Assembly (NCBI GenBank): GCA_030620115.1
Contig: JAUXFG010000015.1
Span: 1 to 38,871, forward strand
Direction: 5' to 3'
DNA: 38,871 bases
Source of the DNA: Candidatus Fermentibacterota bacterium
Lineage (GTDB): Bacteria; JAFGKV01
Part shown: positions 33,501-38,445 of the stretch, piece after piece
Numbering within the stretch: position 1 is the first letter of the stretch
How the letters are laid out: every line of letters starts with the position of its first letter
Program-made: the position numbers and the translations under genes
Notes under the pieces: generated by a model
The model's input: the letters and a program-made list of their open reading frames with translations, nothing else
What the model was told of the DNA's origin: nothing
The model's database searches: none

Positions 33501-33812
33501 AAACAATCACCTTAGTTCTATCCGTTCAGTCCGCGTCACGCGGCATCTTTGTTCGGTACTGCCGACGTGATGTGACAAATCCCTCCTCGTGATCCCGCGT
33601 TCGCCGCGGGGGGAAGAAATGCGGGCTTAGCCCAAGCTTCTCACCAATCCTGCGGCGGGTTCGCTTCGAAAGCCGGTGAGAAGTCCGGATTAGGCGGGTT
33701 TCGAACCCGGCTTTGGACTCAAAACAGGGATAAGAAGGAGATCTTTTTGAAATTTGCAAGAGATCGGTGTGAATATGAGGATATCTTGGAAGAACCCTTC
33801 TGGGGGCCAAGT
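33501..33812. other. Intergenic region with a repeat family A copy
   Basis: No gene is supported. About 33593-33693 holds repeat family A copy 3 (CCCGCGTTCGCCGCGGGGGG, then GCGGGCTTAG and TTCGAAAGCCGGTGAGAAGT). The rest continues to the left terminal repeat of the transposase element. Confidence 0.5.
33593..33693 (+). repeat. Dispersed repeat family A, copy 3
   Basis: It shows a hairpin, then AAATGCGGGCTTAG, then a second block CGAAAGCCGGTGAGAAGTCC and GGATTAGG, similar in order to the copy at 12555-12680 (reverse orientation there). Confidence 0.65.
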
Positions 33813-33831
33813 GGGGTCAGGCATTGCTAAC
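33813..33831 (+). repeat. Left terminal inverted repeat of the transposase element
   Basis: The 19-bp sequence begins GGGGTCAGGC and ends GCTAAC. It contains the transposase stop codon (TGA read on the minus strand). It pairs perfectly with the copy at 34802-34820. Confidence 0.85.
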
Positions 33832-34773
33832 GGCGAATTGAGATTTACTCTTCACGTCATTGATACGATCGTGTAGTGTTCTATCCCGATTCATCCTGTT
33901 CCGTAATCGAGCCGCGCCCGCGCTCAGGGTCGAGCTGTCCCGCTGAAATACTTTCGCCGCTTCTGCAATCGTGATCTCAGGGTGCTCCTGTACTATCAGC
34001 CCGATAACCGACCGCGCCTCTGACGCCAATCGTCCCCTTCCCGGTGCCAAAAGCTCGTCCTGTGCTATCCCGTATGCTTTGCATACGCCATCAATGATCC
34101 CGTCGAGTGTTATCCGTGTCCCTTTCATGCCATCTTCGGCTTCCTGCACTCGCTCGATGAAACTCTCATTTCCGATGAGTCGACCGTCAGACTGCGCCGG
34201 ACTGAACTCAGACTTGGCTGCGTCACTATCCAATCCACCCAAAACGAATCGGTGGAACCGTTCTCGTGCTTCTCCTTCTCGGTCTGCAAACCGAGCCAAA
34301 ACCAACCCCTCTGTGAGCCAGGGCAGTGTATCGTCTCCTCTGTAGAATCGATGGCTGCTCCAGCGATATGATTCCGGTCTTTTCATGATACCGGCTCGCA
34401 CAGGATTGAGATGAATGTAGCTCACCAATTGAAGCAGATAGGAGTCGACATCTACCAAATTTGTCTTGTACCGCCCCTGAAACAGATGACCAACTCGTTG
34501 GTGGCGCCTGTTGAACCACTGGGTATACCGGAACGTGAGATTCTGCATGATGCGGGAGAGTGGCCGTTCTCCCACCTGGATCGCGATATGGATGTGGTCG
34601 TCGAGCAGACAAAACGCGTGAACGCGGTACCCAAATCGCTCGGTCCCTTCTTGCATCAAAAGACAAAATCTTGTCCGGTCTACGTCATCATAGAACACAT
34701 CATCCTGGGCGTTCCCCCGCAGGATGACATGATACAAGGCCCCTTGATAGTGGATTCGTGGTTTACGTGACAT
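33817..34773 (-). CDS. REP-associated tyrosine transposase with DnaA-like C-terminal domain
   Basis: 318 residues from the ATG at 34773. The Y1 domain starts MSRKPRIHYQGALYHVILRG, and the metal-binding motif is DDHIHIAIQ, a His-x-His form. LVSYIHLNPVRAGIMKRPESY is the second conserved block, where the catalytic tyrosine is expected. The C-terminal 90 residues, with LASEARSVIGLIVQEHPEIT and IAEAAKVFQRDSSTLS, form a DnaA-like helix-turn-helix. RAYTs bind REP hairpins and are usually single-copy housekeeping transposases. The last codons and stop fall in the left terminal repeat. Confidence 0.88.
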   Translation of the reverse strand: MSRKPRIHYQGALYHVILRGNAQDDVFYDDVDRTRFCLLMQEGTERFGYRVHAFCLLDDHIHIAIQVGERPLSRIMQNLTFRYTQWFNRRHQRVGHLFQGRYKTNLVDVDSYLLQLVSYIHLNPVRAGIMKRPESYRWSSHRFYRGDDTLPWLTEGLVLARFADREGEARERFHRFVLGGLDSDAAKSEFSPAQSDGRLIGNESFIERVQEAEDGMKGTRITLDGIIDGVCKAYGIAQDELLAPGRGRLASEARSVIGLIVQEHPEITIAEAAKVFQRDSSTLSAGAARLRNRMNRDRTLHDRINDVKSKSQFAVSNA

Positions 34774-34801
34774 GCTGTCCAATATACATACTCACATCGC
34801 T

Positions 34802-34820
34802 GTTAGCAATGCCTGACCCC
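34802..34820 (-). repeat. Right terminal inverted repeat of the transposase element
   Basis: Reverse complement of the left 19-bp repeat. It begins 29 bases upstream of the transposase ATG and directly abuts the fragment of the disrupted phosphotransferase-like gene. Confidence 0.85.
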
Positions 34821-34981
34821 AATCGGCACTCCTTGTCTATACCGCCCGGAATGTTCCGTCGCTTCAGGATGTACCGATCCCCAGACGTCACCGTCACCGC
34901 CGTGGCACTTCCCCAATAGGAGTCAATCGGTTCGTTCGAGACGACGTCGCCTATATCCCAAGATGCGAGCAAGTCCTTCAT
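34821..34981 (-). pseudogene. 5' fragment of a phosphotransferase-like (APH/kinase-like) gene
   Basis: An ATG at 34981 opens a frame reading MKDLLASWDIGDVVSNEPID, then VTSGDRYILKRRN, similar to the start and the lysine strand of aminoglycoside-phosphotransferase-like kinases. After about 50 codons the frame runs into the right repeat of the RAYT element. I see no continuation on the far side of the element, so the gene is truncated. Assignment to the family rests on a short stretch only. Confidence 0.45.
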
Positions 34982-35078: not shown

Positions 35079-35462
35079 CTACTTCGTGTAGGCTGGCCTG
35101 AGGCCCTTAAGCATAGGGTAGTGTTTGGTGTTGAGGGTTTTCAGCTCCGCGTTCTCGGCTTGAGCGGTAGCAGCCAAGATGGCATCTGCAAGGCCGACGC
35201 CGTGTGACTTGGCATAATCACGCTTGTAGAGCCCTCCAGTCTTCGCGATCGCCGCATCTACAGGGATAACACGAAAGAGTGAGATGAAATCCTCCAAAAC
35301 AACTTGTTCTGCATCTCCCTTCACTCCAGCGTATAGTTCCGCAACGACGATGGATGACAGGACAATTAGATCAGATTTGGCGTTTACCAAGGCCAGCGCT
35401 TTGCTGTGGCCGCGGAGGAAGTCAACAAGAACATCTGTGTCGAGAAGGATTGACTTTGCCAT
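35079..35462 (-). CDS. vapC: VapC-like PIN-domain toxin
   Basis: About 127 residues from the ATG at 35462. The PIN fold is plain: ILLDTDVLVDFLRG with the first acidic residue, IVVAELYAG with a conserved glutamate, and GLADAILAATA with the last acidic pair. Such proteins are ribonucleases that cut tRNA or rRNA. The ATG is two bases after the antitoxin stop. An upstream in-frame start at 35480 lies inside the antitoxin gene. It is followed by an attC-like site. Confidence 0.9.
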   Translation of the reverse strand: MAKSILLDTDVLVDFLRGHSKALALVNAKSDLIVLSSIVVAELYAGVKGDAEQVVLEDFISLFRVIPVDAAIAKTGGLYKRDYAKSHGVGLADAILAATAQAENAELKTLNTKHYPMLKGLRPAYTK

Positions 35463-35464
35463 GA

Positions 35465-35698
35465 TCAGTTCCTGTCCCATTCGGCTCGCGTTGCCTTGAA
35501 GTCAGGAAGATCCGTACGATTCTTCCAGATTCCGGCAGCCTCGCGTAATACCACCTCCCGTCGACTGCGGCCTGATTGATCGATGAGGCGATTGACGGCC
35601 TCTCGAATGAGCTCGCTCTGTTTTTTCCCCGCGGTCTTGGAGATAGCAGCCAGTTCGTCACGTTGGTGCTCTGTCAGGTATATCTGCGTTCGTATCAT
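35465..35698 (-). CDS. vapB: VapB-like ribbon-helix-helix antitoxin
   Basis: 77 residues. The N-terminal RHH motif MIRTQIYLTEHQRDELAAIS gives DNA binding, followed by a helix KKQSELIREAVNRLID and a toxin-binding C-terminus with IWKNRTDLPDFKATRAEW. GGAGG lies six bases upstream of the ATG. It sits first in the operon and probably represses its own promoter at 35728-35755. Confidence 0.9.
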   Translation of the reverse strand: MIRTQIYLTEHQRDELAAISKTAGKKQSELIREAVNRLIDQSGRSRREVVLREAAGIWKNRTDLPDFKATRAEWDRN

Positions 35699-35755: not shown

Positions 35756-35823
35756 GACCAACGGTTCGAGTTCAGCGGACCGAACCCCGCAGGGGTGAGG
35801 GTCCGCTTGAGCGAGTTGTTCAA
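35756..35823 (-). other. attC-like palindromic site 1 (upstream of vapB)
   Basis: On the minus strand AACAACTCGCTCAAGCGGACC is paired with GGTCCGCTGAACTCGAACCG TT-type arm, with an extra unpaired A in the first arm. The ends are TTGAAC-like and GTTGGTC. This is the arrangement of integron attC sites (AAC...CAAGCGG / CCGCTGAA...GTT). It lies between the parDE-like and vapBC pairs. Confidence 0.45.
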
Positions 35824-36049: not shown

Positions 36050-36316
36050 CTATTCGTTGTCATCATCTCGCAGCATCACCATTGCCCCATGGATTACTGC
36101 AATGACATCAATTTGATCTGATTTGATGTGATATATGATTCTGTATGGACCGACAAAGACTTCTCTGATTTGATCAATGTCATATTCTGGGACACGACGG
36201 CCAGACAGCGGAAACGCCCCTATCTGTTGCGATTTCCTTGTGATTCGATCAACTGTGCGAAGTGCATATATGGCGTCCAAATGTCCCTCTGCCGTTTCTG
36301 TCCAATGTATTTTTAT
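36050..36316 (-). pseudogene. ParE/RelE-like toxin, start codon lost and apparently shortened
   Basis: The frame opens at ATA (36316-36314), preceded directly by a stop, then KIHWTETAEGHLDAIYAL, RTVDRITRKSQQIGAFPLSG, VPEYDIDQIREVFVGPYRII and AVIHGAMVM. It is a ParE-like toxin, but the usual ATG is ATA. One base change (G to A) in an ancestral ATGA overlap would keep the antitoxin stop as TAA and destroy the toxin start. Compared with relatives as I recall them, about ten residues after DAIYA seem missing. A TTG at 36280 is an unlikely substitute start. Confidence 0.65.
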
Positions 36317-36501
36317 TCAGGGAGTCCGTATTTCTTTCTGATCTCATTTACATCTTTTATTCTGCCTGCGTTGCTGTCTTCCAGTCCCTTCTCAATGGCT
36401 TCACGCACATAAATCTCGTGCATCAAGTCATCCCACGTCGCATCAGCCGGCAGTTGATCGACCAGCCTATGAGCATCTTCTTTTCTGACTACGGTGGACA
36501 T
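36313..36501 (-). CDS. ParD/PHD-like antitoxin partner of the ParE-like toxin
   Basis: 62 residues from the ATG at 36501, which has AGGAGG eight bases upstream. MSTVVRKEDAHRLVDQLPAD and DDLMHEIYVREAIEKGLEDS followed by VNEIRKKYGLPE form a small helical antitoxin of the kind that precedes parE. The stop TAA overlaps the ATA of the toxin frame. It is preceded upstream by an attC-like palindrome. Confidence 0.85.
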   Translation of the reverse strand: MSTVVRKEDAHRLVDQLPADATWDDLMHEIYVREAIEKGLEDSNAGRIKDVNEIRKKYGLPE

Positions 36502-36547
36502 ACATGTGCCTCCTCTTGCCGATTCGCAATCAATGATTGAGTTCTTG

Positions 36548-36691
36548 CCGAATGTGTGCGAGCTCAGCGGCGCCCGGACGTGGCGGAGCAAGCTTGCATG
36601 CGGAGTCCTGGGAGGGTGTCCGCTCGAGCGAGTCGTTCGGCGGCACAAGCCGCCGGGCAACTCGCTTGCGAAGCAGCTCGCACACATTCGG
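36548..36691. other. attC-like palindromic site 3 (upstream of the parDE-like pair)
   Basis: A perfect 17-bp inverted repeat, CCGAATGTGTGCGAGCT at 36548-36564 and its complement at 36675-36691, encloses further complementary blocks, including GAGCGGACA and GCCGCTGAG on the minus strand. The inner part matches the CNAGCGG / CCGCTGA pattern of the other two sites. It may be one large attC or two adjacent ones. Confidence 0.4.
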
Positions 36692-37312: not shown

Positions 37313-37327
37313 TATTCTTGCGCGAAT
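37190..37327 (-). repeat. Dispersed repeat family E, second copy with palindromic insert
   Basis: Read on the minus strand it starts AGGATTCGCGCAAGAATAAG, then AGTTATGGCGCA, an insert with GGGTTAGCATAGCGTAACCC, and ends CATGTAGGGGCATGGCATGC. The order matches the copy at 14659-14740 except for the insert. Confidence 0.6.
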
Positions 37328-37587
37328 CCTTGGCTATGTCTCGCCCTTTCAGGGCTGAGGGGTTTTACTTCTGTGCCTGTGCCCCAGGGCTACGCCCTGT
37401 CGGGCTTTCCCTGGGCTGGTATGTCAAGCCCCTTCAGGGCACATTGCGAGAATGGCTATATCGACTGACGGACAGAGTATACGGCATCGGGCTACGCGCT
37501 GGCAGAGCCGGGGTCCTCGATCGTCCCGGGACAGCCGCAGGCATCTATGGCCTCTCGCGACAAAATCGGATGAGAAGTCCGGGTTAA
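37313..37587 (+). repeat. Direct repeat B, copy 1 (left of arsC)
   Basis: About 275 bp. It contains CGCGAATCCTTGGCTATGTC, CCTTTCAGGGCTGAGG, CCCCAGGGCTACGCCC, CCCTTCAGGGCACATTGCG and then a family A-like end. It is nearly identical to 38168-38443 apart from small changes and the family A hairpin. Confidence 0.9.
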
Positions 37588-37588
37588 G
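37525..37588 (+). repeat. Dispersed repeat family A, copy 4
   Basis: It shows CCCGGGACAGCCGCAGGC, then TCTCGCGACAAAATCGGATG and AGAAGTCCGGGTTAAG. It is the degenerate end of direct repeat B copy 1. Confidence 0.65.
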
Positions 37589-37690
37589 ATGCGACATCTG
37601 ATGAAATTCTTCTTCGGGAACATCACACCTTTTCGTGGACGGGAAAATGGGCAGCAAAGAATAGTCTAGTAAATCTATGGATTTACTAGA

Positions 37691-38143
37691 CTATTCATCT
37701 ATCTGCTTCAGGATGGCCTGGATTTCATGGGCGAATGCCCGGATCTCGTCGCGGATGCGACGGTAGTGTTGAAGAGCTTCATCCTCGTTATGCGCGCGCG
37801 CAGCAAGCGCCGGGGGATCATCGAATCCGCGGTGGAGCATGGTCGTTTTGCGTGGAAAGATCGGGCACGTTTCCCTGGCGTGGCCGCAGAGGGTAATGAC
37901 ATAGTCGAATTCCACATCGAGTAGTTCTTGCACGTCTTTTGAACGCTGGTCCGAGATATCAACGCCAGCCTCCGCCATTACTATGATGGCCCTCGGATCC
38001 ACGCTTTTTGCCACGATGCCCGCGGAATATGCCTCCACCAGGTCACCCATGAGACGACGCGTCCACCCTTCTGCCATCTGGCTCCTGCAGGAATTCCCGG
38101 TGCAGAGAAAGAGTATCTTCGGATTCAGTTGCTTCTCTTGCAT
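37691..38143 (-). CDS. arsC: Arsenate reductase, thioredoxin-coupled (low-molecular-weight phosphatase type)
   Basis: 150 residues. The P-loop is FLCTGNSCRSQM, with Cys14 as nucleophile and Cys19. Cys86 and Cys93 in ITLCGHARETCP match the Cys82-Cys89 relay of thioredoxin-linked ArsC. PRAIIVMAEAGVDIS is the typical middle part. It reduces arsenate to arsenite. No arsR or arsB is nearby, so it may be an isolated cargo gene. It lies between two direct B repeats of about 275 bp. Confidence 0.92.
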   Translation of the reverse strand: MQEKQLNPKILFLCTGNSCRSQMAEGWTRRLMGDLVEAYSAGIVAKSVDPRAIIVMAEAGVDISDQRSKDVQELLDVEFDYVITLCGHARETCPIFPRKTTMLHRGFDDPPALAARAHNEDEALQHYRRIRDEIRAFAHEIQAILKQIDE

Positions 38144-38167: not shown

Positions 38168-38443
38168 TATTCTCGCGCGAATCCTTGGCTATGTCTCGCC
38201 CTTTCAGGGCTGAGGGATTTTCCTTCTGTGCCCCAGGGCTACGCCCCGTCGGGCTTTCCCTGGGCTGGTATGTCAAGCCCCTTCAGGGCACATTGCGAGA
38301 ATGGCTATATCGGCTGACGGACAGAGGCTACGCCCTGGCAGAGCCGGGAGCCTTGGTCGTCCCGCACCCAAAGCGTTGGGTGCGGGACAGCCACAACCAT
38401 TTCTCCCGTCTCGCGACGAAAGCCGGTGAGAAATGCGGGTTAA
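38168..38443 (+). repeat. Direct repeat B, copy 2 (right of arsC)
   Basis: Near-identical to 37313-37587. The copy includes TTCAGGGCTGAGG, CCCCAGGGCTACGCCCC, GTATGTCAAGCCCCTTCAGG and ACGCCCTGGCAGAGCCGG, followed by the family A hairpin CCCGCACCCAAAGCG. Confidence 0.9.
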
Positions 38444-38445
38444 GC
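38361..38445 (+). repeat. Dispersed repeat family A, copy 5
   Basis: It shows the hairpin CCCGCACCCAAAGCG with TTGGGTGCGGG, ACAGCCACAACCATTTC, CGACGAAAGCCGGTGAGAA and ATGCGGGTTAAGC. It is the clearest copy and the right end of direct repeat B copy 2. Confidence 0.8.

Follow-up and report, generated by a model that had tools for sequence, protein, structure and literature searches.

We identified a ParE-superfamily toxin-antitoxin module of type II whose toxin gene has, in all likelihood, been inactivated recently by two lesions, next to an antitoxin gene that has stayed intact. The module lies on the minus strand of the window, that is, the whole 38,871-nucleotide stretch of Candidatus Fermentibacterota DNA analysed here. 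One lesion is the loss of the toxin start codon, with ATA in its place; the other is the deletion of 30 bases that lay between short direct repeats, which takes away the tip of a structural hairpin. With its frame, stop codon and ribosome-binding site intact, the antitoxin could presumably still be made by the cell. Little or no toxin would be produced, since the ATA start should lower its synthesis, and whatever is made should, judging from the model, be without the hairpin. Toxicity has probably been lost. Either lesion may have come first.

The antitoxin gene (36313..36501, minus strand) is an intact frame of 62 codons, ATG to TAA, whose 62-residue product is MSTVVRKEDAHRLVDQLPADATWDDLMHEIYVREAIEKGLEDSNAGRIKDVNEIRKKYGLPE. 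A Shine-Dalgarno-like AGGAGG (36509..36514, minus strand) precedes its ATG in the sequence GGCAAGAGGAGGCACATGT-ATG, and the frame aligns with those of 15 relatives at 55-87% identity and free of gaps. The ParE-like toxin remnant (36050..36316, minus strand) is open over 88 codons, from the first codon ATA to the stop TAG at 36052-36050. It matches Pfam PF05016 (ParE_toxin) over nearly the whole profile at 54.2 bits (cut-off 23), as do 10 of 10 intact relatives tested (best E 1e-19), and is 63-88% identical to intact relatives when only shared columns are counted. The arrangement is that of a type II module: a small antitoxin gene lies immediately ahead of the toxin gene and overlaps it, and the pair is conserved in relatives. 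Profile searches also examined the antitoxin for a ParD-like identity and a ribbon-helix-helix DNA-binding domain. A Pfam search, ParD models included, gave no match; NCBIfam RelB_ParD_antitoxin matched weakly, in the C-terminal half only and at 16.6 bits, below the cut-off of 60; and the best PDB hit of the antitoxin profile (E 0.04) was a CopG-family protein, again restricted to the C-terminal part. Neither a further copy of the antitoxin nor a second copy of the pair able to supply toxin was found in the genome, and the locus had no match in a defence-system library. Another PF05016 match in the genome, at C116:37508, belongs to a different module, which has an antitoxin-like frame of its own upstream, and was rejected as a second copy.

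A one-genome-per-species scan gave 24 loci of this family, and later searches brought the collection to 35 distinct intact pairs in all. The first-pass annotation had proposed that the toxin ATG was lost by a base change at 36314 that kept the antitoxin stop, and comparison with these relatives bears this out: the position and the letters are right, and the toxin starts with ATG in 30 of the 35 intact relatives, with GTG in 5 and with ATA in none. On the minus strand the antitoxin/toxin junction reads CTCCCTGAATAAAAATACATTGG, and the ATA (36314..36316, minus strand) overlaps the antitoxin stop TAA (36315-36313). In most relatives with a readable junction the antitoxin TGA overlaps the toxin ATG, a few having GTG or a slightly shifted overlap; the ATGA overlap that had been supposed is the usual state. 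The remnant thus lacks the standard start codon of a translatable gene. AUA reportedly supports weak translation initiation in E. coli, so "no toxin made" should not be taken strictly. Additionally, an in-frame TTG at codon 13 (36278..36280, minus strand), with GAGGG upstream, is a candidate start and the only ATG, GTG or TTG ahead of codon 79 in the remnant frame. Putative initiation there would yield a 76-residue protein without beta1 and the beginning of alpha1.

The second lesion removed exactly 30 bases, or ten codons, in frame after DAIYA. The ten residues (YIAxDSxxYA-like, for example of the YIAQDSPEYA type) are present in all 35 intact relatives and absent from the window's toxin. This confirms and sharpens the earlier estimate of about ten missing residues, and no relative has the same shorter N-terminal region. 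On one side of these 30 bases the closest relatives carry TATGC or a near copy, and on the other TACGC/TATGC; in the window only one repeat copy, TATGCA (36263..36268, minus strand), remains at the deletion junction, which falls between 36263 and 36262 as placed by codon alignment with the closest relatives L002, L123, L122 and L004. Short direct repeats do flank the deletion, as had been suggested, but they encode YA...YA and not IYA...IYA. The arrangement is the one expected of slippage or another short-repeat deletion.

The deleted residues 19-28 run from the last part of alpha1 through the turn into the first part of alpha2 and make up the tip of the alpha1-alpha2 hairpin. AlphaFold2 predicted the intact relative L002 with a pLDDT of 88.0 and helices at 7-21 and 25-42, and the solved folds nearest to this model are ParE toxins (6x0a, TM 0.82; 5cw7/5czf, 0.80; 5ceg). 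The window's remnant was modelled with a pLDDT of 66.6, helices at 7-11 and 15-28 and a broken hairpin, and its TM-score to the same target was 0.59 versus 0.82 for the L002 model; both models come from shallow alignments (10-13 sequences), which makes the comparison indicative only. The L002 model has its N-terminal alpha1-alpha2 hairpin packed on an antiparallel sheet; the remnant is short of ten residues at the tip of this hairpin. In the solved M. tuberculosis ParE2, the hairpin consists of beta1/alpha1 plus alpha2 and the antitoxin is bound in its groove (PMC10899793), and in solved ParE structures the hairpin is part of both the core and the antitoxin-binding groove (PMC10899793, PMC8706911). 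Because the deleted segment belongs to this core and groove, it is very likely, as far as modelling can indicate, that the deletion alone would have abolished the function of the window's toxin. Toxicity in the ParE family commonly comes from inhibition of gyrase. Since the hairpin tip is missing and the model is poor, we regard the window's toxin as the remnant of a ParE gene and not as a working member of the family.

Relatives of the pair are spread over several phyla. The closest are of gammaproteobacterial type: L002, from an endosymbiont of Lamellibrachia, with 85% nucleotide identity in the toxin, and L123, whose genome came from the same order-level search, with 81%. A tree groups the window's copy with these two (support 99/90). 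The pair was absent from both companion genomes among the three genomes of the window's phylum examined, the window's own included, and it is likely to have reached this genome by horizontal transfer. Every residue in codons 2-82 of the remnant also occurs in some intact relative (n=35). About 55% of random single-base changes would show as a stop or an unseen residue, and the absence of any such change bounds neutral divergence since the lesions at about 2.2%. Because all other residues compared occur in intact relatives, the damage to the toxin is, on the sequence evidence, recent.

The open frame of the remnant, with no other unusual residues, would also fit a kept function of the shortened protein. 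It might still be made, from the AUA by termination-reinitiation at the overlapping antitoxin stop or from the TTG at codon 13, and have retained a non-toxic role, for example as a co-repressor that binds the antitoxin. This seems very improbable to us. The 88-codon frame is open, codons 2-82 hold no residue unseen in the intact relatives, GAGGG stands just upstream of the TTG, and pN is far below pS against L002 (0.064 versus 0.473; dN/dS was left out for relatives beyond L002, where synonymous sites are saturated). However, the signal of constraint goes back to the long period that preceded the lesions, the time since loss being bounded only at about 2.2%; the groove through which ParE binds its antitoxin is formed largely by the hairpin broken here (PMC10899793, PMC8706911); and the model of the remnant is poor.

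The window's locus is not alone in its damage. Antitoxin-anchored searches of four genome groups yielded 52 loci (E 1e-20 or better) that had sufficient sequence downstream; 30 of them have an intact toxin and 22 (42%) a damaged or missing one. The antitoxin frame is intact at 21 of these 22; at L099 both genes are damaged. The lesions mostly differ from locus to locus and include in-frame stops (L083, L091, L128), frameshifts (L118, L120, L121, L125, L134), a stop plus a frameshift (L097), and truncations or large deletions (L088, L089, L093, L131, L132, and a deletion common to L129 and L039), and similarity to the toxin is nil or a trace only at L045, L057, L082, L087 and L127. When two of these groups were searched from the toxin instead, every intact toxin of the clade that was found had an intact antitoxin upstream, and the one broken antitoxin met from the toxin side (L013) adjoins a toxin that is also broken. 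At L021 (around locus positions 1800-2220), the antitoxin frame breaks off at residue 58 and continues into the toxin from about residue 21, as though the two genes had been fused by a deletion.

By gene length, the probability that all 22 lesions would fall in the toxin by chance is 2e-5, a somewhat generous figure given that both genes are broken at L099, that L039 (the same place as L024) and L129 share one deletion, and that an antitoxin-anchored search favours intact over broken antitoxins. Some of the surveyed genomes were first found through the toxin, which biases the sample towards intact toxins, and draft assemblies may add false frameshifts, though several lesions lie on megabase-size contigs (L128, L129, L131, L132). 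Toxin-first decay is common in this family, and the window's locus is one more case.

Assembly quality also bears on the window itself, where one or both lesions might be errors of a draft, metagenome-like genome. The locus is known from a single genome in 296 contigs, and the gene is free of other damage. We nevertheless consider such errors highly unlikely, because the toxin has two separate lesions and the antitoxin is free of them, an in-frame 30-base deletion with terminal repeats is a biological signature and an unusual type of error, and like toxin lesions occur on the megabase contigs of the relatives just named. Genuine inactivation of the toxin remains the better account.

By the established reasoning on toxin-antitoxin modules, losing the antitoxin first would be lethal, whereas losing the toxin first is not. 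Toxin-first decay probably reflects this lethality, and because the two orders of loss differ in this way, the one-sided decay can be explained without any role for the antitoxin. Selection might additionally have kept the antitoxin, as an anti-addiction gene or a regulator, and thereby favoured loss of the toxin, a reading that would add to our best explanation and that we consider unlikely. An intact antitoxin frame stands beside a broken toxin at 21 of the 52 loci, the antitoxin is still there at the five loci where the toxin is nearly gone, and anti-addiction is a published model (PMC2654758, PMC7354431). However, passive decay in which the toxin breaks first yields the same pattern, and searches for relatives of the antitoxin on plasmids, in phages and in viruses, against which it could act, found none. 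For the toxin, there were no plasmid relatives at 60% identity or above, the best among the matches listed reaching 37-42%.

The deletion common to L024 and L129, which belong to two species, extends from the toxin start to about residue 66 and allows the evolution of an antitoxin without its toxin to be followed. Between the two antitoxins there are 7 nonsynonymous and 4 synonymous differences, close to the neutral expectation of about 8.7 and 2.3, and this one pair gave no significant signal of purifying selection after toxin loss. The suggestion in the first-pass annotation that toxin loss is a plausible route to a safe orphan antitoxin agrees with how common toxin-first decay is in the family, but this pair shows no significant constraint on the antitoxin. 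It is also conceivable, but quite unlikely, that the antitoxin family has repeatedly turned stand-alone, with a selected job for the antitoxin and the window's locus as a very recent convert. That job would be regulation, or neutralising the toxins of related modules, from this widespread family, that enter the cell.

The window's locus is most closely allied to modules of the parDE / paaA2-parE2 type (PF05016; PDB 6x0a, 5cw7, 8c26). It resembles them in sequence family, in the predicted fold of intact relatives and in that the antitoxin gene precedes the toxin gene, the two overlapping by a short ATGA in most relatives; it differs in that its toxin lacks a standard start codon and the alpha1-alpha2 hairpin tip and its antitoxin matches no Pfam ParD model. 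Decayed modules have been reported elsewhere. Caulobacter crescentus carries a parE pseudogene beside an orphan ParD gene, and the YacB toxin of Shigella flexneri is frameshifted (PMC7354431); in both, as probably here, the toxin is inactivated, and the antitoxin gene is left. The ccdO157 module of E. coli is likewise degenerating (PMC2654758). These cases involve other families and other lesions, whereas the window combines a start codon loss with an in-frame slippage deletion. Many orphan antitoxins of the Klebsiella pneumoniae complex, which like the window's have no working partner, were judged remnants of intact modules (review PMC7354431), but the window's toxin remnant is still recognisable at full length except for the deletion. 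The locus is thus a case of ordinary decay, of a kind already published; a family-wide decay count was not found in a small literature search.

Several features were observed around the module. A 20-mer, AAC(A/G)ACTCGCTC(A/G)AGCGGAC, flanks it with one copy on either side, both oriented alike, and the window has no further copy (expected 0.03). One copy, the attC-like arm AACAACTCGCTCAAGCGGAC, lies downstream of the toxin remnant (35801..35820, minus strand), and the second lies upstream of the antitoxin (36618..36637, minus strand). We record both as leads: the 35801-35820 copy and its downstream part fold as an attC-like hairpin (z -3.1), and the toxin-antitoxin pair may belong, or once have belonged, to an integron-type cassette. 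Just upstream of the antitoxin, a 17-base perfect inverted repeat (36548-36564 / 36675-36691; CCGAATGTGTGCGAGCT / AGCTCGCACACATTCGG) lies in a stretch with a very strong single-stranded DNA fold (z -7.4). Directly downstream of the module is a second toxin-antitoxin pair (35079-35698, minus strand), a PIN-domain (VapC-like) toxin and a ribbon-helix-helix antitoxin, with both frames open. A Y1 (IS200-like/REP-associated) transposase with a DnaA-C-like tail (33817-34782, minus strand) is flanked by a 37-base inverted repeat whose arms (33806-33842 / 34791-34827) are 86% complementary. A direct repeat of about 270 bases (37313-37589 / 38168-38445), with pieces about 75-96% alike and a spacing of about 855, encloses a gene of the low-molecular-weight phosphatase family (ArsC-like; 37691-38143).

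Taken together, the window's locus is a young example, showing two lesions but no additional wear, from a family that allows toxin-first decay to be counted. Counting of this kind is a simple means of asking for how long chromosomal modules remain addictive, and whether the antitoxins left behind are retained or just survive longer than their toxins.
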